Source: a virus. Taken from it: a stretch of DNA of 27,978 bases. Where the stretch lies: IMG/VR virus record IMGVR_UViG_3300009365_003819, positions 1 to 27,978 of that record. One strand, 5' to 3'. The notes under the pieces were generated by a model, which did no database searches, was not told the origin of the DNA, and worked only from the letters and a program-made list of their open reading frames with translations. Positions 13,479 through 27,450 of this stretch are shown in pieces. The translations under genes were made by a program, and so were the position numbers. How positions within the stretch are numbered: position 1 is the stretch's first letter; each line of letters begins with the position of its first letter.

Positions 13479-13564
13479 GCGCGAGTGGTGGAATTGGTAG
13501 ACACGCAGGTCTTAGGAACCTGTGCTCATGTAGTGTGGGGGTTCGAGTCCCCCCTTGCGCACCA
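13479..13564 (+). tRNA. tRNA-Leu (anticodon TAG)
   Basis: An 86-base tRNA with a long variable arm: acceptor GCGCGAG/CTTGCGC, discriminator A and encoded CCA. Anticodon loop CTTAGGA with TAG at 13513-13515; T arm GGGGG/CCCCC. First of four tandem tRNAs. Confidence 0.95.
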
Positions 13565-13567
13565 AAC

Positions 13568-13653
13568 GGAAGGCATCCGAACTGGTGAGGACGCAGACTT
13601 GAAATCTGTTGCAGCGAAAGCTGTTGGGGGTTCGAGTCCCCCGCCTTCCGCCA
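13568..13653 (+). tRNA. tRNA-Ser (anticodon TGA)
   Basis: An 86-base class II tRNA: acceptor GGAAGGC/GCCTTCC, discriminator G, encoded CCA, long variable arm (GCAGCGAAAGCTGT) and anticodon loop CTTGAAA (TGA at 13600-13602). Three bases separate it from tRNA-Leu. Confidence 0.95.
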
Positions 13654-13656
13654 TTT

Positions 13657-13731
13657 GCCACCGTAGCTCAATGGCAGAGCACCGCTCTTGTAAAGCGGGG
13701 GTTAAGGGTTCAAATCCCTTCGGTGGCTCCA
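13657..13731 (+). tRNA. tRNA-Thr (anticodon TGT)
   Basis: A 75-base cloverleaf: acceptor GCCACCG/CGGTGGC, discriminator T, encoded CCA; anticodon stem CCGCT/AGCGG around CTTGTAA (TGT at 13689-13691); T stem AAGGG/CCCTT. Confidence 0.95.
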
Positions 13732-13734
13732 CCC

Positions 13735-13807
13735 GGGGATGTAGCTCAATTGGGAGAGCATCTGCTTTGCACGCAGAAGGTTGCTGGTTCGAGTCCAGTC
13801 GTCTCCA
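13735..13807 (+). tRNA. tRNA-Ala (anticodon TGC), CCA not encoded
   Basis: A cloverleaf with acceptor GGGGATG/CGTCTCC, D stem GCTC/GAGC, anticodon stem TCTGC/GCAGA around TTTGCAC (TGC at 13768-13770) and T stem GCTGG/CCAGT. After discriminator A the genome reads CCC, not CCA, unlike the other six tRNAs here, so the 3' end must be completed by host CCA-adding enzyme. Confidence 0.92.
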
Positions 13808-13885
13808 CCCAATGCTTAAACAAATTAGAGACATAGCCGATGACAGACCGGTACAAAGTCTGTTATGCTTTATTATGGAGAAAAA

Positions 13886-14322: not shown

Positions 14323-14399
<77 letters not shown>

Positions 14400-15676: not shown

Positions 15677-16474
15677 ATGCGTATCAATGAATATAACACT
15701 GATCTGCTATTTGAGAACGATGATGACCCAACGAAGCTTCGTGTTCTTGATTTTGATGACACGATTGCAGATACAGTAGAGAAGGTAGTCATCACCCAAA
15801 CAGCAAAAGATGGAACAGTGTCGTATAAAGCTATTAGCTCTAAGGAGTTTGCAATCTATGAATTGCAGCCTGGTGAATCAATTGATCCTGACATAGCATT
15901 TCAAGAATTTGCTAGAGTTGATATCGAGAAAGCCACACCAGTTCCTCTTATTACAGACCTGCTACGAAAGTTTGCATCAACAGAGGGTAGAAGAAAGCTA
16001 TTAATACTTACAGCGCGTGGGCAGGAGGTTGCTGATGATGTGATGTCCTTTCTTGAGAGAAAGGTGGGAATATCTGATCCAGCAGGAAAGATAGACTTCA
16101 GGGGTGTTAATAGCAAAGATCCTGCAGCAAAAGTTAAAGTAATAGAAGAGTATCTTGAAGATTACCCCAATATTCAATTTGTCTCTTTCTATGACGACTC
16201 AGGAAAGAATGTCAAGGCAGTAGCTAACTTTCTAGATGATCGTGGAATAAAGAAGGATGTGAGGCAGGTCGTAACAGACGAAGAGGGAAATGTGCGACTT
16301 GTCAGACCAAAAATTGATGAGACAGTATCGATGTCAGATTTTTCTACATTGGTTCGTAGCTTTCTTCGAGGAACATCACAGGATGATAGAAATAACATTG
16401 TTGCTGAATCACCTGAGTCTTTTGATGAAAGAAGCCTCGCGCGTGATTTTTTTAGAAGAATGCTTAGTGAGTAA
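15677..16474 (+). CDS. HAD-superfamily phosphatase-like protein
   Basis: A 265-aa protein. HAD motif I is V-L-D-F-D-D-T-I-A-D (nucleophile Asp25, acid/base Asp27), motif II L-L-I-L-T-A-R-G with its Thr, and motif IV V-S-F-Y-D-D-S-G-K-N with paired Asp. A Lys-containing segment lies between. The fold suits a phosphatase such as the phosphatase half of polynucleotide kinase/phosphatase, but no kinase P-loop is present and the substrate is unknown. The N-terminus (N-T-D-L-L-F-E) and C-terminus (R-M-L-S-E) carry (L)-x-E motifs discussed under findings. GGAG lies nine bases before the ATG. Confidence 0.8.
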   Translation: MRINEYNTDLLFENDDDPTKLRVLDFDDTIADTVEKVVITQTAKDGTVSYKAISSKEFAIYELQPGESIDPDIAFQEFARVDIEKATPVPLITDLLRKFASTEGRRKLLILTARGQEVADDVMSFLERKVGISDPAGKIDFRGVNSKDPAAKVKVIEEYLEDYPNIQFVSFYDDSGKNVKAVANFLDDRGIKKDVRQVVTDEEGNVRLVRPKIDETVSMSDFSTLVRSFLRGTSQDDRNNIVAESPESFDERSLARDFFRRMLSE

Positions 16475-16661
16475 GCAATTTATTTAATTTACTAATAGCA
16501 TGTGATGCAGTGTTAGTAAATATTCCAGGATGAATCGCATGTAAGCAGCATGCGATTCCCACAGAAATCAGTCGAAGAGATACATACTGTGCGAAAATAA
16601 AATGTTGACAGTAATTCATGTCAACGTCTTCAAGGTGGTCTTTAGCTGTTTTCAATAGCAT
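16464..16661 (-). CDS. DUF6356-like small membrane-associated protein
   Basis: A 65-aa minus-strand product fills the gap after the HAD gene and overlaps its end by 11 bases. AGGA lies about eight bases before the ATG. The layout H-L-E-D-V-D-M-N-Y-C-Q-H, F-A-Q-Y-V-S-L-R-L-I-S-V-G, H-A-I-H-P-G-I-F-T-N-T-A-S-H-A-I resembles DUF6356 (H-x3-V-x4-x-x-H ... hydrophobic helix ... H-A-x-x-P-x-x-F-x-x-T-A-S). The central helix is hydrophobic and may lie in a membrane. Function unknown. Confidence 0.65.
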   Translation of the reverse strand: MLLKTAKDHLEDVDMNYCQHFIFAQYVSLRLISVGIACCLHAIHPGIFTNTASHAISKLNKLLTH

Positions 16662-16705
16662 ACATTTATCCTACTTTGAAATAGTTATTTCGCAAGGCTT
16701 CGAAT

Positions 16706-17524
16706 ATGAACATGAGAGAAAAATTGCTGTCACAGGTGAGACACTTACTGAGTGAGACTGCAACGCAGGCATTTCCCGGTGCGCTACCTGTTGACATCGC
16801 AGATATACAAAAGGTCATCACACAGCTCGGTCAGGAGCAACTGGCTAAGGAAGAAGAGATTAAAGCAGCGCAGAAAGAGCCCGACCCTAGTGTTCGCTCA
16901 ACTAAGGTGGCACAGCTACAAGGAGAGTTAAGTGATATCATAGCTCAAAAGAGTCAGCTTGCGCAGATGCAGAATAAGCCCACGACATCAGAGGGATTCA
17001 GTCAGTTAAATTCTAAGCTTAAGCTTTCAAGAGCAGATCTTGCGGAGATTGTTAGAGAGCAGCTTGATGCGGGACAAGATAGAGCTGGTTGCCCACTAGC
17101 AGCACAGGACGTGGCACTAAATACAGAGAACAGAAATGCGACCAGAGAGAATCATGCTTATGGACCGCTCAATCCTTCGAAGCCTAGTGAGGGGTTTTGG
17201 GAGAAGATAGCTGATAAGTGGGATGCTACTATTGAGGAAGCGTTGAGCACTCGTTGTGCAAATTGTGTCGCATTCGATATCAGCCCAAGGATGAAGGACT
17301 GTATGCCATTGGCTGATGCTAATGTTAAGGATGTGCTTGGAGATGATCTACCTGGGTTTGATGTTGAGGAGTATGATGTGCAGTTTGGATACTGCTGGAT
17401 GCATCACTTTAAGTGCCTAAGTGCCAGGGTGTGTGATACCTGGGCAAGCGGTGGTCCCATTGACGAGAATGAGGTGTCCTATGAGTGGGGAAGAAAATCT
17501 GGAACTGAACAGGAAGAAGAATGA
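16706..17524 (+). CDS. Cys-rich protein with (I/L)-S-E leader, possible metal binder
   Basis: A 272-aa protein. The N-terminus M-N-M-R-E-K-L-L-S-Q-V-R-H-L-L-S-E matches the leader type seen in neighbouring proteins, and a second such helix (L-S-R-A-D-L-A-E-I-V-R-E) occurs near residue 110. A Gln/Lys/Glu-rich coiled-coil part precedes a C-terminal Cys domain: T-R-C-A-N-C-V-A-F, D-C-M-P, F-G-Y-C-W-M-H-H-F-K-C, A-R-V-C-D-T-W-A-S-G-G-P-I. The Cys and His spacing suggests Zn or Fe-S binding. Its stop overlaps the next start as ATGA. I do not recognise a named family; a virion-associated role is inferred only. Confidence 0.65.
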   Translation: MNMREKLLSQVRHLLSETATQAFPGALPVDIADIQKVITQLGQEQLAKEEEIKAAQKEPDPSVRSTKVAQLQGELSDIIAQKSQLAQMQNKPTTSEGFSQLNSKLKLSRADLAEIVREQLDAGQDRAGCPLAAQDVALNTENRNATRENHAYGPLNPSKPSEGFWEKIADKWDATIEEALSTRCANCVAFDISPRMKDCMPLADANVKDVLGDDLPGFDVEEYDVQFGYCWMHHFKCLSARVCDTWASGGPIDENEVSYEWGRKSGTEQEEE

Positions 17525-17751
17525 AAATCACTAAGACTCGTCTAAGACAGATTATCAGTGAGGAGATCAGTCGAATTCTTGATGATGACATTGATGAAGT
17601 ACCGCAAGGACTTGGTGCAAAGCTTAGCGGTGATGATCCTCGGTCTGTGGCTGGAGGGGATGTTGAAGATGATCCACCTGTGGAAGAAGAACTTACACTC
17701 CCAATAGATACTCGTGGTGGTTGGGAATACATGACAGGCGGCAAATACTAG
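17521..17751 (+). CDS. Small acidic protein with basic (I)-S-E leader
   Basis: A 76-aa protein starting at the ATGA overlap. It begins M-K-I-T-K-T-R-L-R-Q-I-I-S-E-E-I-S-R-I-L, a basic amphipathic helix ending at I-S-E, followed by an acidic, Gly/Pro-rich disordered tail ending W-E-Y-M-T-G-G-K-Y. The leader recurs with variations in other proteins of this window. The TAG stop is followed in the same frame by a 31-codon open stretch containing the AGC-GCC-CAG tandem repeat. No enzymatic domain is visible. Confidence 0.7.
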   Translation: MKITKTRLRQIISEEISRILDDDIDEVPQGLGAKLSGDDPRSVAGGDVEDDPPVEEELTLPIDTRGGWEYMTGGKY

Positions 17752-17761
17752 ATCTCATCTA

Positions 17762-17833
17762 GCGCCCAGCTTTCATCGAGCGCCCAGCTTTCATCGAGTG
17801 CCCAACTTTCATCGAGCGCCCAGCATTTATCCC
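17762..17833. repeat. Tandem repeat, four 18-base units
   Basis: Units at 17762-17779, 17780-17797, 17798-17815 and 17816-17833, the first two identical (GCGCCCAGCTTTCATCGA). The third differs at two bases and the fourth diverges at its end. A partial unit precedes them. In the frame of the upstream gene they encode S-A-Q-L-S-S repeats, and both changes in unit three are synonymous. Confidence 0.85.
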
Positions 17834-17877
17834 TCGTAGAGCAGTGAATCTATCTAGAGTCGAATATCTATTAGTAG

Positions 17878-18351
17878 ATGGATATCAAACCGTTAATGGA
17901 CTTATTGCTAAAGATTGAGGCTCTTGTCAAGGGTTTGCATAGTCCTGCAGATGATAAAAGTCAAGAAATAGATAGTATCAAGGAATCAGCAGGCCATCGC
18001 CATGATGAGCTTGATGCTAAGTTAATTAGCATTGCGCAGAACCAGCAAAAAATATACAACACACTCAACACTCGTGTAAAAGTTCTCGAAGATAACTTTT
18101 CACAATTAAAGCTGTTTGTAGAGCAAAATACAGATGATTTGAGGCTAGAGTCATTGAGTTCAATCCGGGCACTGGAAAGACTCGACGTACTAGAGTATAA
18201 ACAAAATCGTTTCAGGATTCCCAGGTGGATCAAGTCCGTTGTTGGGAAAATCAGAAATAGACTTCCTGAAATATACATGTTTGGTATAGGTTGCATTCTT
18301 TCAGGTACGGTTGCCGCAGCAGTTTTCTGGTTAGTTACCAACACGAATTAG
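17878..18351 (+). CDS. Coiled-coil protein with C-terminal membrane anchor
   Basis: A 157-aa protein. Most of it is helical with heptads (L-D-A-K-L-I-S-I-A-Q-N-Q-Q-K-I-Y-N-T-L and K-V-L-E-D-N-F-S-Q-L-K-L-F-V-E). A basic stretch (R-I-P-R-W-I-K-S-V-V-G-K-I-R-N-R) precedes a single hydrophobic segment near the C-terminus (F-G-I-G-C-I-L-S-G-T-V-A-A-A-V-F-W-L-V). This resembles spanin- or tail-anchored layouts, but no lysis genes are adjacent. ATG 17878 has no strong binding site. Function unknown. Confidence 0.65.
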   Translation: MDIKPLMDLLLKIEALVKGLHSPADDKSQEIDSIKESAGHRHDELDAKLISIAQNQQKIYNTLNTRVKVLEDNFSQLKLFVEQNTDDLRLESLSSIRALERLDVLEYKQNRFRIPRWIKSVVGKIRNRLPEIYMFGIGCILSGTVAAAVFWLVTNTN

Positions 18352-18353
18352 GC

Positions 18354-18382
18354 GTGCAAATGTGTGCTACCTTGTGTATAAT
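18354..18382 (+). promoter_or_regulatory. Promoter GTGCAA-N17-TATAAT
   Basis: GTGCAA (18354-18359), 17 bases, TATAAT (18377-18382), just upstream of the GDLV gene at 18400. Confidence 0.7.
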
Positions 18383-18399
18383 AGAGACAGGAGGCATGC

Positions 18400-18666
18400 T
18401 TGGCAGCAAGAATCCCCAAGAAGCTTAAAAAACAAGCTAAGCAAGGAATGCGTCGTGCTGTCCAGACCGGCAAAGCGAAGCAGCTAAGGAAGACCTGGTC
18501 TTTTCGTTTGGGTGATCTAGTTCAGTACAGAGATCTCTGGGGATTGATTATTGCTCAGCCTACACCCGATAGCTACACTGTTTTAACACCCAGTGGAACC
18601 TATCAGATCAGGGCAGCAAACCTAAACAGGGTGCAGCAACAGGCGCGTGCAAACACAGGTACTTAG
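18400..18666 (+). CDS. Gly-Asp-Leu-Val family protein with basic N-terminal extension
   Basis: An 88-aa protein from TTG 18400, supported by AGGAGG six bases upstream and by the promoter. The first 35 residues are strongly basic (K-K-L-K-K-Q-A-K-Q-G-M-R-R), then F-R-L-G-D-L-V-Q-Y-R, W-G-L-I-I-A-Q, Y-T-V-L-T-P-S-G-T-Y and I-R-A-A-N-L-N-R-V complete the barrel pattern. The basic arm suggests nucleic-acid binding. Its 3' end carries the next promoter. Confidence 0.7.
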   Translation: MAARIPKKLKKQAKQGMRRAVQTGKAKQLRKTWSFRLGDLVQYRDLWGLIIAQPTPDSYTVLTPSGTYQIRAANLNRVQQQARANTGT

Positions 18667-18675
18667 ATTTATAAT
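18647..18675 (+). promoter_or_regulatory. Promoter GTGCAA-N17-TATAAT for the MoxR gene
   Basis: GTGCAA (18647-18652), 17 bases, perfect TATAAT (18670-18675). It overlaps the end of the preceding gene and gives a leader of about 27 bases. Confidence 0.72.
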
Positions 18676-18708
18676 AGACTGTAAACACACAACACAGGAA
18701 ACAAAATC

Positions 18709-19779
18709 GTGGATATCAAAACTTTTACATCAGTCGTACCGAGGCTGCCAGCAGGTCAAGCAATTCTGGTTCGTGGACCTCACGGTATCGGTAAGTCACA
18801 ACTCTTCCGTCAAATTTCTGAAAATGTGGTTCTTTCTGATGGTTCTGTTGGAGTTCCGCTTATTGACCGACGGCTTGCTCAAATGACTGAGGGAGATATC
18901 ATTGGACTGCCTGAATTGGTAGATGGTGTGACTCGATTTGCTCCTGTTGAATGGTTGCTGCGAGCTTGTCGTGAGCCGGTAGCATTGATGCTTGATGAAA
19001 TCAATCGAGCAACACCTGAGGTGATGCAGTGTGCTTTCCAGCTTGTTTTGGATCGGGAGCTGAATGGACATGTTTTGCATCCTGAGACTCGAATCTATTG
19101 TGCTGTGAATGCTTCCTCTGACTATCAAGTTAATGAGATGGATCCCGCGCTTCTTGATCGATTCTGGGTTGTTGATCTTGATGTCAATGAGAAGGATTGG
19201 ATTGATTGGGCAAAGAGTAGTGACATTGATCCCATTATCGTTGAGTTCATTCGAGACAATCCTTGTCACCTGCGTCACAAGGGTGCAGTTGAGCCGGGCA
19301 AGGTGTACCCATCACCTCGTTCTTATGAGAAGCTTGATGTAGCACTCAAGTCAGCTTCTTGGAATCCGATTGATCTGGCTGGCCGTGATATTCCGGACGG
19401 TTTCTATGCTGTGTCTCTGGGATTTCTTGGAACAGAGGCAGCAATCACATTTCGTGACTTCGTAAAGAATTATGAGCTGCAGATCTCTGCTGAGGATATC
19501 TTGGACCGATGGAGCAAGAACTCTGAGATGGTGTTGAAAATGGGAGTTGATAGGCACAATGGGCTGATTGAGAAGCTCGTCGATCACAGCCGAGACAATG
19601 AGTGGAGTGTGACACAAACCAAGAACGCTTGTGACTTCATTCGAGAACTGTCTGATGAGCTTCTTGTTAGTTTCTTCAACTCCATCATGGACACAAACAA
19701 CGTACCAAACATTCGGTCAGTTCACAAGTTCATTGGAATGGCTGTGGTTGAAGCAGTAACAGCAGCTCAAAAGGCGTGA
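18709..19779 (+). CDS. MoxR-family AAA+ ATPase
   Basis: A 356-aa AAA+ ATPase, start GTG 18709. Walker A is G-P-H-G-I-G-K-S (residues 23-30), Walker B A-L-M-L-D-E-I-N-R near 92-100, sensor 1 region N-A-S-S-D-Y and arginine-finger region D-P-A-L-L-D-R-F. E-I-N-R-A is a MoxR hallmark. MoxR ATPases act as chaperones for VWA proteins, and a DUF2201 metallopeptidase/VWA protein follows two genes downstream, so these form a functional pair. The stop overlaps the next GTG. Confidence 0.88.
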   Translation: MDIKTFTSVVPRLPAGQAILVRGPHGIGKSQLFRQISENVVLSDGSVGVPLIDRRLAQMTEGDIIGLPELVDGVTRFAPVEWLLRACREPVALMLDEINRATPEVMQCAFQLVLDRELNGHVLHPETRIYCAVNASSDYQVNEMDPALLDRFWVVDLDVNEKDWIDWAKSSDIDPIIVEFIRDNPCHLRHKGAVEPGKVYPSPRSYEKLDVALKSASWNPIDLAGRDIPDGFYAVSLGFLGTEAAITFRDFVKNYELQISAEDILDRWSKNSEMVLKMGVDRHNGLIEKLVDHSRDNEWSVTQTKNACDFIRELSDELLVSFFNSIMDTNNVPNIRSVHKFIGMAVVEAVTAAQKA

Positions 19780-19991
19780 ATCGATACAGGGGAAGCAGGA
19801 GGTCACCTCAAAAGGGTGACCTCGCAGTTATTGCCCTGGAGGGAAATCGATACGATGGCAGGCTTGGGTTGATTATCATCTCAGGGCCAGGTGAAAAAGT
19901 AGATCTGATAGTATCTTCGCCGCCCATGAAAAGCTCTAGAAGCTTAGTGGTATCATCGCAGCATTTGAAATACGTGCAATCAGCGCAGTAA
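19776..19991 (+). CDS. Gly-Asp-Leu-Ala variant of the GDLV small-protein family
   Basis: A 71-aa protein. GTG 19776 overlaps the MoxR stop (GTGA), so it is translationally coupled. Sequence marks: basic arm (R-Y-R-G-S-R-R-S-P-Q), K-G-D-L-A-V-I-A, L-G-L-I-I-I-S-G and V-D-L-I-V-S-S-P. It lies between the MoxR ATPase and its VWA partner. The 3' end includes the -35 of the next promoter. Confidence 0.6.
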   Translation: MNRYRGSRRSPQKGDLAVIALEGNRYDGRLGLIIISGPGEKVDLIVSSPPMKSSRSLVVSSQHLKYVQSAQ

Positions 19992-20002
19992 TGTAGTAAA
20001 AT
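19974..20002 (+). promoter_or_regulatory. Promoter GTGCAA-N17-TAAAAT for the DUF2201 gene
   Basis: GTGCAA (19974-19979), 17 bases, TAAAAT (19997-20002). The predicted start is about 16 bases before ATG 20025. Confidence 0.68.
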
Positions 20003-20024
20003 ATGCCTATAAAGGTGGAATCAT

Positions 20025-21335
20025 ATGTCACAGGATAAGGGAACATCAGTTGATCTTCCAGTTGGTCAGCTTGCTTCTGAAGAGGATGCAGCTAGGTTCA
20101 ACATTGAACCACAGCTCGTTAATCTAATGCTTCACGAACCGTTTTACAGCCACATTCTCAGAAGGGTTGAAAAGGTTCGTAGTTCAGCATTGCCTACAGC
20201 GGGTGTGACAGTTAGGGATGGTGAGTTCACAATGCTTTACAATCCCCGATTTCTTGCTGCACTGGTTTCTCTTCAGGTTAGAGGACTGCTTAAGCATGAG
20301 TGTCTGCATCTCGTTTTCAAGCATTGCACAGGCAGAAAGCAGGACCCGCACATTCTTTGGAATTGGGCAACCGACCTTGCAATTAATTCGCTGATTCCAG
20401 AACAAGAACTGCCTGAAGGTGGTCTTCGTCCGGGCCAGGCACTTGACCTTAGTAAGATTGAAGATCCAGCACAACTTGAGAAGTGGAAGAAGGTATCTGA
20501 TCTCATTGAATCTTTTCCGATTGGACTGGCAGCTGAGAAGTACATGGCGCTGCTTCGACAAGATCCTGATGTGAGACGGACAATTGAAGAGCAGGGTGAT
20601 CCTTCGGGAGAGGGCGGCCAGGGCGGAAGCCCAGGTCCCACTGATGATCATGGTGGCTGGGGTGAGCTTAGCGATGAAGAGCAACAGATTGCTGAGGGTA
20701 AGATTCGACAGGCAGTAAATGAGGCTGTTAAGAAGTGTGATCGAACGGGTCAGTGGGGATCTATATCAGGAGCGGCTCGAGAGTCGTTGCGTGCTTTGTG
20801 CAATAACTCTGTTAACTGGAAGAAGGTGCTCCATAACTTCTGTGGACGAAGCCAGCGTGCTAACCGTTCTAGAACGTTGAAGAAGATTAATCGCAAGTAT
20901 CCGTACATTCACGCCGGAACCCGTCGCGGCCACAGTGCTTCAGTGGTCGTCTATATTGATCAGTCAGGATCTGTTGGAAGCGATGAGATCAGCATGTTTT
21001 TTGGTGCGCTGAATCAGCTCGGACGAATCACATCATTCAGCGTTTTCTTCTTTGATACTGCCGTTGATACGAAGAATAAGATTAAGTGGCGCCGCGGTCA
21101 AAAGGTAGATGCCCGTAGGACGCGGTCAGGAGGAACTTGTTTCTCAGCAGTTGAGAAGCACTTGAAGAAGGATGGAGCAGAGTTTGATGGTCATATCATT
21201 CTGACTGATGGTCAGGCTAGTGACCCTGGACCCTCACGTAAGCGTCGGTGCTGGGTGCTACTTCCCGGCTGTGAGCTGTACTTCAAGCCTCATCCGAATG
21301 ACGTTGTTGTGAAGATGGATAACTTGCCAAGGTAG
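20025..21335 (+). CDS. DUF2201-type protein: HExxH metallopeptidase-like domain plus VWA-like domain
   Basis: A 436-aa protein. H-E-C-L-H at residues 91-95 with a later His (L-V-F-K-H) is a zinc-peptidase-like motif in the DUF2201 N-terminal domain, followed by W-N-W-A-T-D-L-A-I-N. A Gly/Pro-rich linker near residue 190-210 leads to the VWA-like domain, whose MIDAS begins V-Y-I-D-Q-S-G-S-V near residue 312 and continues with L-T-D-G-Q-A. The pairing with MoxR is a recurrent bacterial arrangement. AAAGGTGG lies seven bases before the ATG. Biochemical function is not established; a chaperone-protease or assembly role is inferred. Confidence 0.85.
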   Translation: MSQDKGTSVDLPVGQLASEEDAARFNIEPQLVNLMLHEPFYSHILRRVEKVRSSALPTAGVTVRDGEFTMLYNPRFLAALVSLQVRGLLKHECLHLVFKHCTGRKQDPHILWNWATDLAINSLIPEQELPEGGLRPGQALDLSKIEDPAQLEKWKKVSDLIESFPIGLAAEKYMALLRQDPDVRRTIEEQGDPSGEGGQGGSPGPTDDHGGWGELSDEEQQIAEGKIRQAVNEAVKKCDRTGQWGSISGAARESLRALCNNSVNWKKVLHNFCGRSQRANRSRTLKKINRKYPYIHAGTRRGHSASVVVYIDQSGSVGSDEISMFFGALNQLGRITSFSVFFFDTAVDTKNKIKWRRGQKVDARRTRSGGTCFSAVEKHLKKDGAEFDGHIILTDGQASDPGPSRKRRCWVLLPGCELYFKPHPNDVVVKMDNLPR

Positions 21336-21345
21336 GCCCTCTCTT

Positions 21346-21381
21346 ACAAGAAAGCAACGCTTTTCTTTTTGCATTTCTTGT
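21346..21381 (+). terminator. Terminator-like hairpin with a competing alternative hairpin
   Basis: AAGAAAGC (21348-21355) pairs with GCTTTTCTT (21359-21367, one bulge) before a T run: a Rho-independent terminator shape ending the DUF2201 transcript. The same 5' arm (21346-21357) can pair instead with 21369-21381 (TTGCATTTCTTGT). Confidence 0.55.
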
Positions 21382-21406
21382 CATACTTAAGAGCGAGGTG
21401 GCAAGA

Positions 21407-21739
21407 ATGTATGAGTACCAGGCTGAGCTTATGCGTGTCGTGGATGGCGACACTATTGATGCTCGTATTGATCTAGGTTTTAACGTCTGGGTTAAGAAGA
21501 GAATCCGTATGTCTGGCATCAATGCGCCTGAGTCGAGAACAAGAGATCTCGAGGAAAAGCAGCTAGGCATCGCTGCAAAGGAGAGATTACAAAAGATCCT
21601 CAGTGAGACTGATGGAGCTTTCACACTCATTTCACATGGCATTGGAAAATATGGTAGATGCTTAGGTGAGATATTTATTGATGATAAAAGTGTCAATGAG
21701 CAATTAATTATTGAGGGAGTTGTTAGGAGGTATGAATGA
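21407..21739 (+). CDS. Staphylococcal nuclease (SNase/thermonuclease) family protein
   Basis: About 110 aa. SNase marks: V-V-D-G-D-T-I-D-A (Asp and Thr of the Ca site), K-K-R-I-R-M-S-G-I-N-A-P-E (catalytic-type Arg and Glu) and G-K-Y-G-R-C-L-G-E-I (second Arg), ending with V-N-E-Q-L-I-I-E-G. ATG 21407 is preferred because GAGGTGG lies five bases upstream; GTG 21398 is in frame. No signal peptide, so it probably cuts DNA or RNA inside the cell, perhaps host DNA. Its stop overlaps the next start as ATGA. Confidence 0.87.
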   Translation: MYEYQAELMRVVDGDTIDARIDLGFNVWVKKRIRMSGINAPESRTRDLEEKQLGIAAKERLQKILSETDGAFTLISHGIGKYGRCLGEIFIDDKSVNEQLIIEGVVRRYE

Positions 21740-21834
21740 AACATCTGGATAGAGCGTTGGCGAAGCTTAGCGAACAAGCCCGCAGAGAGTATGAAGAAGT
21801 AATAGAACTTTGGATAACATACGGCGGAGACTAA
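21736..21834 (+). CDS. 32-aa mini-gene
   Basis: Strong AGGAGG five bases before an ATG that overlaps the nuclease stop as ATGA. The product is one charged helix (H-L-D-R-A-L-A-K-L-S-E-Q-A-R-R-E-Y-E-E-V-I-E-L-W). Its TAA abuts the next TTG start. Good translation signals argue it is real despite its size. Function unknown. Confidence 0.55.
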   Translation: MKHLDRALAKLSEQARREYEEVIELWITYGGD

Positions 21835-22101
21835 TTGAATAAAGTGAAGATCACAAGAAGCCAGCTTCGAAGAGCTATTAGTGAGTCTTTATCAGAGGGT
21901 CGCGACAAGCACGCCGACTTTACACTTAGCGAGGCAGAGCTAGATGAGATTATACGAAAGGTCGGTGCTAAAAAGTATCGGGTATATTCAAAGAAGAAAA
22001 ACCCAAAAACAGGCAAGAGAAGAAATCTCGGCACCTTCAGCTCAAAGAAGGCAGCTAGAAAGCGTGAGAGGGATATTGAGTTCTTCAAGAGACAAGGCTA
22101 G
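21835..22101 (+). CDS. Basic small protein with (I)-S-E leader
   Basis: An 88-aa protein from TTG 21835, placed directly after the preceding TAA with GGCGGAG six bases upstream; GTG 21844 is an alternative. It begins M-N-K-V-K-I-T-R-S-Q-L-R-R-A-I-S-E-S, closely like the leader at 17521. An acidic helix (L-S-E-A-E-L-D-E-I-I-R-K) follows, then a Lys/Arg-rich domain (K-N-P-K-T-G-K-R-R-N-L-G-T-F-S-S-K-K-A-A) suited to nucleic-acid binding. No named family recognised. Confidence 0.65.
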   Translation: MNKVKITRSQLRRAISESLSEGRDKHADFTLSEAELDEIIRKVGAKKYRVYSKKKNPKTGKRRNLGTFSSKKAARKRERDIEFFKRQG

Positions 22102-22150
22102 CGATAATCTTGAACAACACAAAATAGTGCGTTAAAGTAGGAGAACCAGG

Positions 22151-22372
22151 GTGAGAATTGGTGATCTGGTTTTCTATAAGGGATTCGTTCACGATGACAC
22201 CGATCCACCTTCGTTGGAATATTTCAGCAATTTAAAGCTGGGCTTAATCATATCTGTGAGTGGTAGCATATTTCAGATTTCCACAGGTGGGCACTTATGG
22301 TGGACATGCACCAATGGCGGAGAGATATTCAAAGACTGGGAAATGCTAATTGTTAGTAAGCTTGACAGATAG
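22151..22372 (+). CDS. Gly-Asp-Leu-Val family small protein
   Basis: A 73-aa protein from GTG 22151, with TAGGAGAA upstream. It begins M-R-I-G-D-L-V-F-Y-K-G, then L-K-L-G-L-I-I-S-V-S-G-S, I-F-Q-I-S-T-G-G-H-L-W-W and D-W-E-M-L-I-V, a complete barrel-type pattern near the minimal size for the family. Followed after five bases by another relative. Confidence 0.65.
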   Translation: MRIGDLVFYKGFVHDDTDPPSLEYFSNLKLGLIISVSGSIFQISTGGHLWWTCTNGGEIFKDWEMLIVSKLDR

Positions 22373-22377
22373 ATAGT

Positions 22378-22668
22378 GTGGCAAGAAAAAAAGTAAAAGT
22401 AGGAGATCTCTATGAGGTTAATACCTTTGCCGGTGTTGTAGTGCACGTCAGGATCACACAGGTATTAGATGATGTGTCATATAGCTGTGTTCTAGTTCGA
22501 GAGTCAGACTTAAAAGCTTTGCGAGAAGCTAATGTCTATGTTAAGAAAGGTGAAAAACCTGAAGATGTCGAGGGCTATCTTTATGCCTGGCACATCAAAA
22601 AAAGCTTAAGCCGCTCGGGAAAGAGAAGAAGGATCGTTCGAAAGACAGGAAAAAAAGAAGTGAAATAA
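22378..22668 (+). CDS. Gly-Asp-Leu family small basic protein
   Basis: A 96-aa protein from GTG 22378. The signature is K-V-K-V-G-D-L-Y-E-V with V-V-V-H-V-R-I-T-Q-V-L and Y-S-C-V-L-V-R, then a long basic C-terminal tail (R-S-G-K-R-R-R-I-V-R-K-T-G-K-K). It forms a tandem pair with the family member at 22151. The basic tail suggests RNA or DNA contact. No strong binding site, so it may be coupled to the gene before it. Confidence 0.6.
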   Translation: MARKKVKVGDLYEVNTFAGVVVHVRITQVLDDVSYSCVLVRESDLKALREANVYVKKGEKPEDVEGYLYAWHIKKSLSRSGKRRRIVRKTGKKEVK

Positions 22669-22716
22669 CATTTATCTTTCTAGACTTTGACGGTAATTTT
22701 GATATCTGGAGTCTCA

Positions 22717-23409
22717 ATGTTAGGTAGCTTATTTTTTACAGCAATTTTCGCATGCAACAGCGGTGCAGATATCAATCCTAAAACTGCAGATGACGCTGAG
22801 TCATCTGAGTCATCTGAATCATCGTATAATGACTTTACATCACCAGAAATAAATGTATCACCCGATCTATTAGGCGCAGATACTTCGGCTTCTTCTAGTG
22901 CTGATAGTGACGAAGAAGAGGAGTCACCCATTACATGGACTGAGTGTGATCAGTGGCCAGGCAACCATCCATGTGATTTTAAATTGTATGACTCAAGCGG
23001 TGATGTCTGGACTCTATACAGCAACTATGGCACTGTGATGGTAATCGAATTTGTGACAATGTGGTGTGCTGTCTGCAATAGCATCGCGCCACATGTTCAG
23101 ACGATGCAGGATGCCTACACTTCTCGTGGATACGACTTCTTATGGGTAACTGTTATCGTCGAGGATTATAATCGTGAGAGTGTAGAGTTTTCAGAAGCTC
23201 AGGACTGGATTGATAGAAATGGAATGACAACATCACCTGTATTAGTAGGGTCGCGTGACATGATAGACATGAGTGGCCAACAGGGTTATCCTATCAGCTC
23301 CTGGCCTACCCTTGTTGTGATAGATGATGAGATGGTCCTAACACACGGAATCAATGGCTGGAATGAGAGTGTCATACTAGGGTGGGTTGAAGACGCTTTG
23401 AATCCGTAG
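22717..23409 (+). CDS. Thioredoxin-fold lipoprotein with WCAVC
   Basis: About 230 aa from ATG 22717 (GGAG eight bases upstream); TTG 22687 is in frame and would give a longer signal. Cys13 in A-I-F-A-C is a probable lipid-attachment site. A Ser/Glu/Asp-rich spacer follows, then T-E-C-D-Q-W-P-G-N-H-P-C-D-F and a thioredoxin domain with W-C-A-V-C, V-G-S-R-D-M-I-D and the cis-Pro segment S-W-P-T. It is a paralogue of the protein at 10004 but has a different redox pair, which should alter its potential. Likely anchored outside the cytoplasmic membrane. Confidence 0.83.
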   Translation: MLGSLFFTAIFACNSGADINPKTADDAESSESSESSYNDFTSPEINVSPDLLGADTSASSSADSDEEEESPITWTECDQWPGNHPCDFKLYDSSGDVWTLYSNYGTVMVIEFVTMWCAVCNSIAPHVQTMQDAYTSRGYDFLWVTVIVEDYNRESVEFSEAQDWIDRNGMTTSPVLVGSRDMIDMSGQQGYPISSWPTLVVIDDEMVLTHGINGWNESVILGWVEDALNP

Positions 23410-23410
23410 A

Positions 23411-24670
23411 TTACTTGCTTTTGCGCTTCTTGCGGTGTTTCTTTACCTTTTCCCACTGCGCCTTATCAACTCGTCTTGCCGGTCCACCCTTTAGAAAGCT
23501 ATTCACACGGGCCATCGCCCATTGGGCAGAAGTCATTCCAGGTCGAGACCCTGAGGATGTGTATGCACCAAGCCCTTTGCGGTAGACTGTTGCAAGAGCA
23601 CCGTACGGTGCATTATGCTTTTTTGCTTTATTCTTGAGAGACTTTTTTGTTTTTGCTGAGAATCCTTCTAGAATGTTATCACCATGGATTTCATCGAGTG
23701 TTTCTTCAAGTAAGTTTTGTAGCTCATTCATCTCAGTGATTTGTAATACTTCATTTGTGTATTTACTTTTTCTTGTTTTGTAGCCCGGCTTTGACCTAGC
23801 CATTTTTTCCATTCTATCTCTAAGCTTTTGTGCTTCTTTTTTCTTGCCCTGCTTATAGAGCTCTTTTGCTCTGTCTAGTAGCTTGTCTCTCTCGCTACCT
23901 TCCGGGGCTTTATAGCCAGCTCTGTGTGCTGAATCTTTTTTGTTTTGCTTCTCTTGAATGATTTTAATTGCTTCACTTACAATCTGCAATCTATACAGTT
24001 CAGGCTCTGTGATAGGATCATACATGTTTTCTAGATCTATTCCAAACTTTTGTGGATCTTGATACAAGTCATTGAGTGATTGCTCTTGTTTTGTGTCATG
24101 CTTTTTAGCTTTTTTGATAGCCTTGGCTTTTGTCATACCTGAGGCAACCATCCTTGCAATCATGATATCAGCGAAATCTTTGTCGCCGTCTCCATCCTGA
24201 TCCTTTTTCTTTGTTTTCTTTTTACTCTTTTCTTCTAGGAGCGGCTTAAAGGTTTTCTCTAAAAGCTCTGCTCTGACTAAATTGATTGATTCTTTTTTTG
24301 GTTTTTTATCGGCTGCATCCATCTGTCTCACGATTTTTCTCGCCCAGCTATAACCCGGATCACCACCCCAGAGCATCCAGGCGATGTAACCACTATCTGT
24401 TGCATGAGTCTTTCCTGGATCTATTTTTTTATTTTTTTTGTGACGATCAAAAAATGATTTCATTCTTCTGACAGTTTTCGGAGAGAGATTTGATCTACTC
24501 TTAAGGTTTGATGCGCGCTGCACACCAGATCCTATTCCTTGCTTCGATGCCTGTTTAGCACTCAGCCCTCCCTTGCCTTTGTTTTTTCTTCGAAGCTCGA
24601 GCCCTCGCTTAGCAGCTTTGGCAACAGACGCTGGAGGCTTAAAGTTTATGTGATCGTATTTGCCAGCCAT
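23411..24670 (-). CDS. Multi-module basic phage protein with DUF5824-like C-terminus
   Basis: About 419 aa from the ATG at 24670; the frame stays open upstream but the conserved module begins there. Modules in order: M-A-G-K-Y-D-H-I-N-F-K-P-P with L-S-P-K-T-V-R-R-M and W-M-L-W-G-G-D-P-G-Y-S-W-A; an acidic D-G-D-G-D-K-D-F-A-D segment; a Lys/Glu helix (D-R-A-K-E-L-Y-K-Q-G-K-K-K-E-A); and a C-terminal N-A-P-Y-G-A-L-A-T-V-Y-R-K-G and W-A-M-A-R-V-N-S-F-L-K-G-G-P-A, which resembles DUF5824. Modules are joined by L-x-x-L-L-E-E-type helices. Probably a DNA-associated or virion protein; function is inferred only. It is the only large leftward gene in this half of the window. Confidence 0.7.
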   Translation of the reverse strand: MAGKYDHINFKPPASVAKAAKRGLELRRKNKGKGGLSAKQASKQGIGSGVQRASNLKSRSNLSPKTVRRMKSFFDRHKKNKKIDPGKTHATDSGYIAWMLWGGDPGYSWARKIVRQMDAADKKPKKESINLVRAELLEKTFKPLLEEKSKKKTKKKDQDGDGDKDFADIMIARMVASGMTKAKAIKKAKKHDTKQEQSLNDLYQDPQKFGIDLENMYDPITEPELYRLQIVSEAIKIIQEKQNKKDSAHRAGYKAPEGSERDKLLDRAKELYKQGKKKEAQKLRDRMEKMARSKPGYKTRKSKYTNEVLQITEMNELQNLLEETLDEIHGDNILEGFSAKTKKSLKNKAKKHNAPYGALATVYRKGLGAYTSSGSRPGMTSAQWAMARVNSFLKGGPARRVDKAQWEKVKKHRKKRKSK

Positions 24671-24675
24671 TATGC

Positions 24676-24704
24676 ATGTAAATATTCTAAAGGTGATATA
24701 AAGT
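24676..24704 (+). promoter_or_regulatory. Promoter ATGTAA-N17-TAAAGT
   Basis: ATGTAA (24676-24681), 17 bases, TAAAGT (24699-24704), in the divergent gap next to the leftward multi-module gene. The predicted start is near 24711. Confidence 0.5.
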
Positions 24705-24749
24705 ATTATAGAAGATGCATTAGGGATGTTCTTCTTCTCAGTATTTTTC

Positions 24750-24944
24750 ATGGAGAAACAAGTGGACAAGCAGCAGTGTGAAAAGGTAGAGGAAATCAGG
24801 AAGAACCTCGAGGAGCTTAGAACAGTGAGCTGGTCTTCATATAAGTTAATTGGGTATCCACTAACCAGAAATCTGGCGAATAAAATTGATCGTGCAGCTA
24901 CTGACATCTCGTACCTTTTGAAGCTGATTGATTCTGACATGTAA
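24750..24944 (+). CDS. Hypothetical helical protein, about 64 aa
   Basis: ATG 24750 gives a soluble helical product (K-V-E-E-I-R-K-N-L-E-E-L, A-T-D-I-S-Y-L-L-K-L-I-D-S-D). An upstream ATG at 24726 adds eight mostly Phe residues and has no better binding site, so the start is unsure. The 3' end supplies the -35 element of the next gene. No family recognised. Confidence 0.5.
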   Translation: MEKQVDKQQCEKVEEIRKNLEELRTVSWSSYKLIGYPLTRNLANKIDRAATDISYLLKLIDSDM

Positions 24945-24967
24945 ATCATTAGATTTGTTGTTAAAAT
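24939..24967 (+). promoter_or_regulatory. Promoter ATGTAA-N17-TAAAAT, leaderless start predicted
   Basis: ATGTAA (24939-24944), 17 bases, TAAAAT (24962-24967). The ordinary start distance of about seven bases lands on ATG 24974. Confidence 0.62.
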
Positions 24968-24973
24968 AGTTTC

Positions 24974-25231
24974 ATGCAAAAATGGAATGCCTGGGACAAA
25001 AGATGCATGTGTATCGCACTTTTAAACCGCGAGCTTTTGAGCCAGGGCAGGACCCTCACCGAGATAGAAGTTGAATACAACAAGGGATGGTTTTGCCATG
25101 ATAAAGCCATCGCGTATAGACGACCTGCTCTCACGAAACAAGCAGAGAAGCTGCTTAGAAAGGGACACCGAGCAGTGTTTGACTTGACCCTTAAGAGCTA
25201 TGCAATACATGCAAAAAGCAAACGTTTGTAG
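24974..25231 (+). CDS. Hypothetical protein, 85 aa, probably from a leaderless mRNA
   Basis: ATG 24974 has no Shine-Dalgarno sequence (TAGTTTC precedes it) and coincides with the predicted transcription start. The product has Cys and Trp near the N-terminus (K-W-N-A-W-D-K-R-C-M-C-I-A-L), a helical middle (L-L-N-R-E-L-L-S-Q-G-R-T-L-T-E-I-E-V-E) and a basic C-terminal half. No signal peptide. No family recognised. The -35 of the RadA-like gene lies in its last codons. Confidence 0.6.
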   Translation: MQKWNAWDKRCMCIALLNRELLSQGRTLTEIEVEYNKGWFCHDKAIAYRRPALTKQAEKLLRKGHRAVFDLTLKSYAIHAKSKRL

Positions 25232-25237
25232 TAAAAT
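25209..25237 (+). promoter_or_regulatory. Promoter ATGCAA-N17-TAAAAT for the RadA-like gene
   Basis: ATGCAA (25209-25214), 17 bases, TAAAAT (25232-25237). The predicted leader is about 38 bases, with AAGGGATATAAA before ATG 25282. Confidence 0.65.
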
Positions 25238-25281
25238 AAGCAGGTAAGCAACAACAACAATCCACACGCAAGGGATATAAA

Positions 25282-26031
25282 ATGCGACTTAATACAAACA
25301 TTGGCACTGTTCCTCTTGGAACAAACATTCTTGATGTCGAGGTGCCCGAGGCTCTACGAAAGAGGATTTCTTCTGGACTCGAATACTTTGACGATGCTAT
25401 GGGTGGTAAGGGTTTCACTCCTTCTGCGGTGACACTGTTTACTGGCACACCTGGTGCTGGAAAGACAACCATGATGCTAGAGCTTGCAAATTCTCTTACT
25501 TTTCGTGGTGGAAACGTTCTGTTTAATACTGCTGAGGAATCGCTTTATCAGCTCAAGATGACTGTTGAAAGGCTGCGTCTTCGTTCTGGTTTTAATGCAG
25601 GCCAAGAAACAATGGTACCTGACCTGCTCAAGAACTGTGATGAGTTGCGTGCTCGGCATCCAAACCGTCCGTTCTTCCTTATTGTTGACTCTCTCCAGAC
25701 ACTCAATGATGGCAAGTACGGTGAGCATCAAACTAACTCAAAGACAACACAGCGGTCTCTTGCAATGATTACTGATTATTGTAAGGAGAATTTCTGCAAT
25801 GCTCTTGTAATCGGTCAGGTTACCAAGGACGGAAAGATGGCCGGTGCAAATGTCTTGAAGCACATGGTTGACTCAATGGTGACGCTGGATATTGAACGTC
25901 GTGATGAGGATCTCATGGGTTGCCGAGTTCTCCAGGTTGAGAAGAATCGATTTGGTGGCGCTGGTCACATCTTCTTTCTGGCTCTTCGAGAGAGTGGTTT
26001 TATGGAGGTTAGCCGAGTTAGCTTGGCGTAG
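25282..26031 (+). CDS. RadA/Sms-like RecA-fold ATPase, core domain only
   Basis: A 249-aa protein. Walker A G-T-P-G-A-G-K-T-T near residues 55-62; Walker B F-F-L-I-V-D-S-L-Q-T near 130; V-I-G-Q-V-T-K-D-G-K-M-A-G; and near 225 the RadA hallmark E-K-N-R-F-G. The N-terminal zinc finger and C-terminal Lon-like domain of bacterial RadA (about 450 aa) are absent. RadA promotes branch migration in homologous recombination; here it sits next to a DNA ligase, pointing to phage recombination-dependent replication or repair. Confidence 0.87.
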   Translation: MRLNTNIGTVPLGTNILDVEVPEALRKRISSGLEYFDDAMGGKGFTPSAVTLFTGTPGAGKTTMMLELANSLTFRGGNVLFNTAEESLYQLKMTVERLRLRSGFNAGQETMVPDLLKNCDELRARHPNRPFFLIVDSLQTLNDGKYGEHQTNSKTTQRSLAMITDYCKENFCNALVIGQVTKDGKMAGANVLKHMVDSMVTLDIERRDEDLMGCRVLQVEKNRFGGAGHIFFLALRESGFMEVSRVSLA

Positions 26032-26058
26032 GGGGCAATGCCCCCTCCTCCGGGAGGA
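26031..26058 (+). promoter_or_regulatory. Two hairpins before the ligase start; the second covers the ribosome binding site
   Basis: GGGGGC-AAT-GCCCCC (26031-26045) is a GC-rich hairpin just after the RadA-like stop. TCCTC-CGG-GAGGA (26046-26058) then pairs with the GGGAGGA that should bind ribosomes for ATG 26063. Both may limit ligase expression relative to the upstream gene. Confidence 0.55.
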
Positions 26059-26062
26059 TACT

Positions 26063-27286
26063 ATGGTAGCAGAAATTTTCAAACAAATCAAAGATACACA
26101 AGGGTCAAATGCAAAGAAAGCTCTGCTTGAGAGTCACAGCGATAATGAGCTGTTGAAAAAAGCTCTCAAGTATGGGCTCGATCCATTTACTCCTTTTAAC
26201 GTCGTGAAAGTTCCAAAGGTGAAATTTCGCCTTGAGCTTCCGCTTTCCGAAGAAGAATCGTGGAATGAGTTTTTTACTGTGGCAGACGAGTGTGCGACCA
26301 GGCAGGTAACAGGAAATGCAGCAATTGATAGAGTTCAAGCATGCTTTTCCAGTGTGAGTGAAGAAAACGAGAAGTGGATGCGCAAGATTCTCAAGAAGCA
26401 TCTTGCTATTGGTGCATCTACAAAGACTGTCAACAAAGTTTTCCCTGGACTCGTTCCTACATTTGATGTTTCTCTTGCACAAAAGTTTGATGAGAAGCGC
26501 CTGACTGGAAAGAAAACTGTAGCAGTTGAACCAAAGCTTGATGGAATAAGATGCTTTGCTGTGGTTCGAAATGGCAGTGCACAACTTTTCGCAAGATCTG
26601 GAAAGCTAATAACAAACTTTGACTTGACAATCGGAAAGGAGCTGTCTAAACTGGGTGATGGCTGCTATGATGGTGAGTTGATGGGAGAGGATTTCACATC
26701 TCTAATGAGGCAGGCATACAGAAAGGATGGTGTAGATACATCACAAACCTATCTGTCACTATTTGACTTTCTTCCAATTGATGAATGGCTGGCCGGTGAG
26801 ACAGTTATGACTTGCAGAGATCGCGGAGTAGAGCTTCAAGGCAGGCTGAAAAACGTTAATCACAAGCATATCAGGATGATAACGCGATGGGAGATTGAGG
26901 CTGACACGGATAAGATCGAGACGCTTCACAGGGTGTTCATAGACTCTGGATATGAAGGAGCAATGGTAAAAGATCTAGACGCACCTTACAGATTCGGTCG
27001 CGGTTATGAGGTCATGAAGCTAAAACAGTTTCAAGATGTCGACCTTGAGATAGAATCTCTTCAGGAGGGCACAGGTAAGCATGTTGGTAAGCTAGGATCA
27101 GTTGAGGTCACATTCAATGGTGTAAAAGTAAGGGTGGGCTCAGGCTTCTCAGATGAATTGCGAGATGAGATCTGGGCAGATCCCAATGCATTCATTGGTC
27201 GTATTGTTGAGATAAGATACCAGGAGGTAACACCTGACGGGTCACTTCGCTTTCCGACGTTTGTGTGCTTTAGGAATGATCGATGA
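26063..27286 (+). CDS. ATP-dependent DNA ligase
   Basis: About 407 aa from ATG 26063, with GGGAGGA four bases upstream. Nucleotidyltransferase motif I V-E-P-K-L-D-G-I-R places the AMP-accepting Lys near residue 158. Further motifs: Y-D-G-E-L-M (motif III region), S-G-Y-E-G-A-M-V-K-D (motif IV) and V-M-K-L-K-Q-F (motif V), then an OB-fold part with R-V-G-S-G-F-S. An extra N-terminal helical region of about 140 residues precedes the catalytic core. It seals nicks in phage DNA. The stop overlaps the next start as ATGA. Confidence 0.93.
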   Translation: MVAEIFKQIKDTQGSNAKKALLESHSDNELLKKALKYGLDPFTPFNVVKVPKVKFRLELPLSEEESWNEFFTVADECATRQVTGNAAIDRVQACFSSVSEENEKWMRKILKKHLAIGASTKTVNKVFPGLVPTFDVSLAQKFDEKRLTGKKTVAVEPKLDGIRCFAVVRNGSAQLFARSGKLITNFDLTIGKELSKLGDGCYDGELMGEDFTSLMRQAYRKDGVDTSQTYLSLFDFLPIDEWLAGETVMTCRDRGVELQGRLKNVNHKHIRMITRWEIEADTDKIETLHRVFIDSGYEGAMVKDLDAPYRFGRGYEVMKLKQFQDVDLEIESLQEGTGKHVGKLGSVEVTFNGVKVRVGSGFSDELRDEIWADPNAFIGRIVEIRYQEVTPDGSLRFPTFVCFRNDR

Positions 27287-27450
27287 AGCTTAGCAGTGAT
27301 GCTATCAACCAGCTACTTCGTATCATTAGTGAAGTTGATGCGCCCTGGTGGCCACAAGGGCCAAGCGAGAAGCTAAAGAAAAGGCTTGAAAGCCAGGACT
27401 TTGTGATACAAAAGAAAAGGCTTCATATCAAGACTGAGAAGGAAAAGTAA
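27283..27450 (+). CDS. Small basic protein with (I)-S-E leader, 55 aa
   Basis: ATG overlaps the ligase TGA (ATGA), so it is coupled to ligase translation. It begins M-K-L-S-S-D-A-I-N-Q-L-L-R-I-I-S-E, the same kind of leader as at 17521 and 21835, followed by V-D-A-P-W-W-P-Q-G-P and a Lys-rich tail (L-K-K-R-L, Q-K-K-R-L-H-I-K-T-E-K-E-K). No known domain. Confidence 0.6.
   Translation: MKLSSDAINQLLRIISEVDAPWWPQGPSEKLKKRLESQDFVIQKKRLHIKTEKEK

Follow-up and report, generated by a model that had tools for sequence, protein, structure and literature searches.

Several proteins encoded in one fragment of viral DNA begin with a short basic stretch ending in (I/L)-S-E, and the question is whether these N-termini are capsid-targeting leaders of the T4 type. 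The internal proteins of T4 (IPI, IPII, IPIII, and Alt) have a short N-terminal propeptide that is common to unrelated proteins and is cut by gp21 (PMC9026906, PMC12373910), the cut falling after (L/I)xE (PMC9026906). The window, that is, the whole stretch of DNA analyzed, is the entire 27,978-base IMG/VR record IMGVR_UViG_3300009365_003819, and its gene content includes a helicase, an ATPase, a DNA ligase, and a RecA-like protein. On the sequence evidence described below, it is quite probable that the N-terminal leader is a T4-type capsid-targeting sequence, cut by a gp21-type protease, and that its cargo is kept in the head. A short amphipathic basic helix would attach the protein to the core or scaffold of the prohead, a gp21-type (S77) prohead protease would remove the leader after (L/I)xE at about residue 22 or else at residue 14, and the trimmed cargo would be retained in the head alongside the DNA, possibly to be injected.

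Leader candidates in the window

The original prediction named five proteins of the window, four of them as beginning alike. The quoted peptides are all present in the sequence with small shifts of the start, and the proteins diverge after their N-termini. The N-termini were scored using a smoothed PSSM, for which 352 leaders of other contigs served as the training set, with 99,900 shuffled N-termini as the null. The likeness was borne out for the proteins at 17521 and 21844 (p<=1e-5 for each), was marginal for those at 27283 (p=0.019) and 16706 (p=0.089), which share only the common (I/L)xE ending, and was lost for the HAD protein at 15677 (p=0.75).

The protein at 17521..17751 (+) has 76 aa, with a true leader, MKITKTRLRQIISEE, and a remainder that is acidic and predicted to be disordered; AlphaFold2 gave a helix at residues 5-25 (pLDDT about 81) and low values for the rest. 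Its ortholog in the sister contig G040 reads MKITKAHLRQIINEE. The leader, residues 1-14 (17521..17562, +), ends in IISE and may be cut after E14; the residue after this first site is E, and the second site is ILD, with no E. The 85-aa basic protein at 21844..22101 (+) bears the true leader (V)KITRSQLRRAISE-SLSE with G next, which starts at GTG 21844 within an ORF listed from TTG 21835 (ortholog in G040, MFITDKKLRMLIRESLLE). This leader (21844..21897, +) has two candidate cut sites, ISE/S and LSE/G, of which LSE followed by G fits the rule of (L/I)xE plus a small residue. It is very likely that the capsid-targeting reading applies to these two proteins.

The 55-aa protein at 27283..27450 (+) begins with MKLSSDAINQLLRIISE followed by V, a candidate variant leader. 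The 272-aa protein at 16706..17524 (+) consists of the N-terminal MNMREKLLSQVRHLLSE (also a variant leader candidate), a spacer, an internal leader-like segment, and a HiPIP-like cargo domain; the quoted peptide MREKLLSQVRHLLSE starts with the third residue of this ORF (16712). In G040, the leader of 27283 (KLSSDAINQLLRIISE) is identical, and MREKLLSQVR-LLSE of 16706 has one change. Since their N-termini are nearly unchanged in this sister, 27283 and 16706 may bear variant leaders, and the chances slightly favor a capsid-targeting role for them. For the HAD/polynucleotide-kinase-like protein (15677..16474, +; PHROG 415), such a role is doubtful. Its LLFE and C-terminal RMLSE, which had been likened to the leaders, are not leader-like by score and lie within chance. 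RMLSE is conserved in G040 and is a coded C-terminus, not a cleavage product.

The nearest relative of the window is G040, a contig of 75,869 bases with 80-88% DNA identity over most of the shared stretch. Neither gp23 nor S77 was found in the 28-kb window record or the 76-kb G040, and both are fragments without a head module. We infer that the window phage has an S77 protease of its own; window-lineage relatives that contain the head module also encode the prohead protease. Relatives of the same lineage were found through the ATPase and RecA-like proteins of the window: G059 (134.7 kb) has 17 leader genes, and G061, G063, G065, G069, G075, and G076 (200-267 kb) each have leaders, S77, and gp23. 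In G040, G034, and G059, residues 5-24 contain the pattern hydrophobic-hydrophobic-x-E about two times as often as shuffled N-termini do. A second leader type also occurs in G034 and G040, for example ISESLLRQYIRELFLE and SSEKILREYVREILIE (loci include L285 5731-6630 and L286 6204-7679), at 4 per genome compared with 0.2-0.4 in shuffled N-termini.

Among sequenced phages, the window had no close DNA relatives except over a tRNA. It contains a four-tRNA cluster (Leu, Ser, Thr, and Ala; 13479-13809) and a nearby tRNA-Pro (14323-14399), and the close DNA matches to cultured phages, among those listed, all lay on tRNA-Pro.

The leader family and its candidate cleavage sites

The leaders of 17521 and 21844 belong to a family with the consensus MKIT[KR]xQLxxII[KR]E. 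A search for the N-terminal motif beyond the window, suggested in the original prediction, was run with a degenerate DNA pattern for MKIT[KR]x[QE]L[KR]xII[KR]E, which matched at least 120 stretches in IMG/VR; 373 distinct leader proteins were obtained from IMG/VR contigs. The motif directly follows the start Met (residue 2) in 346/392 protein matches, and its information drops beyond residue 16. In whole-record scans, a record had 0-27 leader genes, compared with at most one match in any record for the reversed-pattern control. The bodies of 365 leader proteins fall into 284 unrelated families, so the leader is short, N-terminal, and common to unrelated proteins.

Within a locus, the synonymous codon identity of leaders was 0.61 compared with 0.415 expected, which points to leader copying. 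An mRNA-level cause of leader conservation was ruled out because synonymous codons vary widely, and late-promoter k-mers were not enriched upstream of leader genes. The carriers are large T4-like phages that are uncultured and, in many cases, probably marine. With a slightly stricter pattern, the leader was found in 2/84,980 cellular genomes, on two contigs; both assemblies have S77, one of them on the same contig. The pattern had no match in T4, immuto, Mel-JY01, RM378, XacN1, or P-HM1, so none of these six isolates could supply virion proteomics for the leader. The tblastn search of cultured phages with consensus leaders gave no match, possibly as these were filtered for low complexity. No report of the motif or of such a leader expansion was found in the literature searched.

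Candidate cleavage sites were counted with one protein per cargo family (284 families). The leader is predicted to be a single helix, and after its conservation stops near residue 16, a sharp second [LIVMF]xE peak ends at residues 21-22, with 40 and 94 sites at residues 21 and 22 compared with a mean of 5.7 at residues 30-49. The second site is followed by A, G, or S in 41%, compared with 22% after LxE in the protein bodies (p=1.7e-6), so the end of the leader fits (L/I)xE plus a small residue. Leaders that lack the second site have A, G, or S at residue 15 in 30% of cases rather than 10% (p=5e-5), and E there in 50% rather than 84% (p=1e-8). Residue 15, which follows the first IIxE, is most often E, unlike the aligned gp23 sites of T4 and of these phages: the T4 site FLTE/A aligns with VLRE/A and LLRE/S in the phages' own gp23. 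The site pattern is as gp21-type cleavage predicts, and the leaders are presumably cleaved.

Head genes, leader exchange, and competing explanations

Among the records tested for both genes, the T4-type S77 protease was found in 38/38 with gp23, and 33 of these bear leaders, so a gp21-type S77 is present in every leader-bearing record (33/33) that has gp23. Leader-bearing records without S77 were, in this tested set, also without gp23 and therefore look like fragments missing the head module. The HK97-type (S78) protease was found in 0/25 records, which gives no place to the leader in an S78 system. The co-occurrence is one-way and therefore weak, since S77 and gp23 also occur in the leader-less records G027, G030, G033, G070, and G072, and the leader is missing from gp23-bearing isolates, T4 among them. 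Beside S77, at loci outside the PSSM training, 42 leader-like N-termini were found compared with 0.7 expected, and they occurred in the fetched neighborhood of 26/43 protease loci. The conserved gene just downstream of the protease often bears such an N-terminus (MAKVSRSMLKSIVKECLVEILAEG and similar). In G070 and G072, this downstream gene is present and strict leaders are absent, which suggests that a core protein may have been the source from which the leader reached cargo.

Leader-like N-termini on conserved head-operon genes adjoining S77 are also what would be seen if the leaders target the prohead but mark core or scaffold parts that are degraded during maturation, rather than cargo that is retained or injected. 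The protein at 16706 and its sister are in keeping with such degradation. The internal segment KLSRADLAEIVREQL of 16706 (residues 106-120; 17021..17065, +), just before the cargo domain, had a single-position p=3e-4, uncorrected for scanning. In G040, 16706 and 17521 correspond to a single 217-aa ORF without the iron-sulfur-like domain (L242 1972-2625; G040 59480-60133), which has three leader-like segments in one polypeptide. Several such segments per polypeptide are reminiscent of T4 gp22 and gp67, both of which are cleaved into pieces (PMC9026906). Most carriers, however, are variable and located outside the head operon; they come from the 284 unrelated families, which include kinase-like, HD, HNH, and YkuD domains, and thus look like cargo rather than scaffold. 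We regard degradation as the general fate of leader proteins as unlikely.

Homologous cargo was found to bear different leaders, each with LxE at the junction. A kinase-like cargo starting with GPRD follows either LLRE or LILE, the same cargo VTQGEMEF is preceded by IIQE or LINE, and another kinase-like protein is preceded by VLRE or YLNE. These junctions bear on whether the leader is instead a cytoplasmic interaction helix, binding, for example, a phage polymerase, a membrane, or an assembly site, that is neither cleaved nor packaged and whose final E reflects helix chemistry. The single predicted helix, the usual E at residue 15, and the clustering of most carriers far from head genes would suit such a helix. 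It fails, however, to predict the LxE peak at residues 21-22 with A, G, or S after it and the shift to E14 when that site is absent, the LxE junctions of unrelated leaders on the same cargo, or the leader-like N-termini beside S77, and is therefore improbable. Convergence or chance among short basic N-termini, which is the probable explanation of the HAD protein and a possible one of 16706 and 27283, is refuted for the entire leader family by the reversed-pattern control, the PSSM scores of the two window proteins, and the codon identity, and has very little probability left.

Cargo domains and comparison with known systems

The C-terminal cargo domain of 16706 (17075..17521, +; CPLAAQDVALNTENRN...RCANC...YCWMHHFKC) was examined through IMG/VR relatives, their annotation, and the G040 comparison. 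It has several cysteines in the arrangement RCANC...DC...YCWMHHFKC and at least 585 relatives in IMG/VR, and relatives carry the annotation 'high potential iron-sulfur protein'. Many different leaders head these relatives, some near the T4 form, such as MKSFTEYLTE and MKTLRQYINIVE followed by A; [LIVMF]xE occurs in 27/30 of their short N-termini compared with 16 expected, and the domain directly follows a leader in L004 and L075. In the Actinomycetia phage DSL-LC01, the domain gene adjoins two genes annotated as capsid maturation protease. Among the carriers, about a dozen of 150 scanned representatives had a Pfam match, and a scan of carriers for defence proteins found nothing.

The T4 internal-protein system resembles that described here in its unrelated carriers, in (L/I)xE followed by a small residue, and in the presence of S77 and gp23 in the same phages. 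It differs in its propeptides of 10-19 residues, compared with MKIT[KR]xQLxxII[KR]EEL of about 14-22 here, and in its handful of carriers, compared with up to about 27 per record. Given the absence of pattern matches in T4 itself and the T4-like leaders on homologous cargo elsewhere, the leader appears to work like a T4 leader and cannot be called homologous to it. In phiKZ and SPN3US, a prohead protease likewise removes N-terminal propeptides from packaged proteins, a process predicted here from sequence; those of the ejection proteins are mostly over 100 residues (PMC5694885), compared with about 14-22 here, and the capsids here are of the gp23 type. Capsid targeting sequences have reportedly also been discussed in connection with head proteins of phage P1. 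P1 takes the concept outside T4 and is likened here by concept only.

The T4 analogy drawn in the original prediction thus holds for the leader family, through site statistics, head-operon location, S77/gp23 co-occurrence, and leader exchange; it is weak for 16706 and 27283 and unsupported for the HAD protein. The best reading is that the leader is a greatly expanded variant of the T4-type capsid-targeting leader, with up to about 27 putative carriers per record. We give roughly even chances that a large group of uncultivated T4-type jumbo phages load each virion with some 10-30 or more small, mutually unrelated proteins using one copied leader cassette and interchangeable variants. If so, they would inject a far larger arsenal than T4 does, and its cargo would include kinase-like, nuclease, and phosphohydrolase proteins and possibly iron-sulfur ones. 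Head-carried, injected proteins are usually learned virion by virion, and a sequence tag would let candidates be read from metagenomes; the leader catalogue would offer 284 cargo families of candidate injected proteins. The leader could also be tested as a means of bringing cargo into T4-type heads, and these phages would be a natural setting in which to study the gain, loss, and exchange of leaders by cargo genes.

Long proteins with many LxE sites were also observed. Those of L030, L007, L076, and similar loci join a nucleotidyltransferase-like segment (VVFTFGRFNPPTTGHEKL) to the iron-sulfur-like domain and are headed by T4-like leaders such as MRKFKDLIE followed by A. The window itself encodes a basic DUF5824-containing protein (23411-24664, -) with several segments ending in LxE, and modules like those of this protein occur within long polyproteins of L058, L059, L030, and others.
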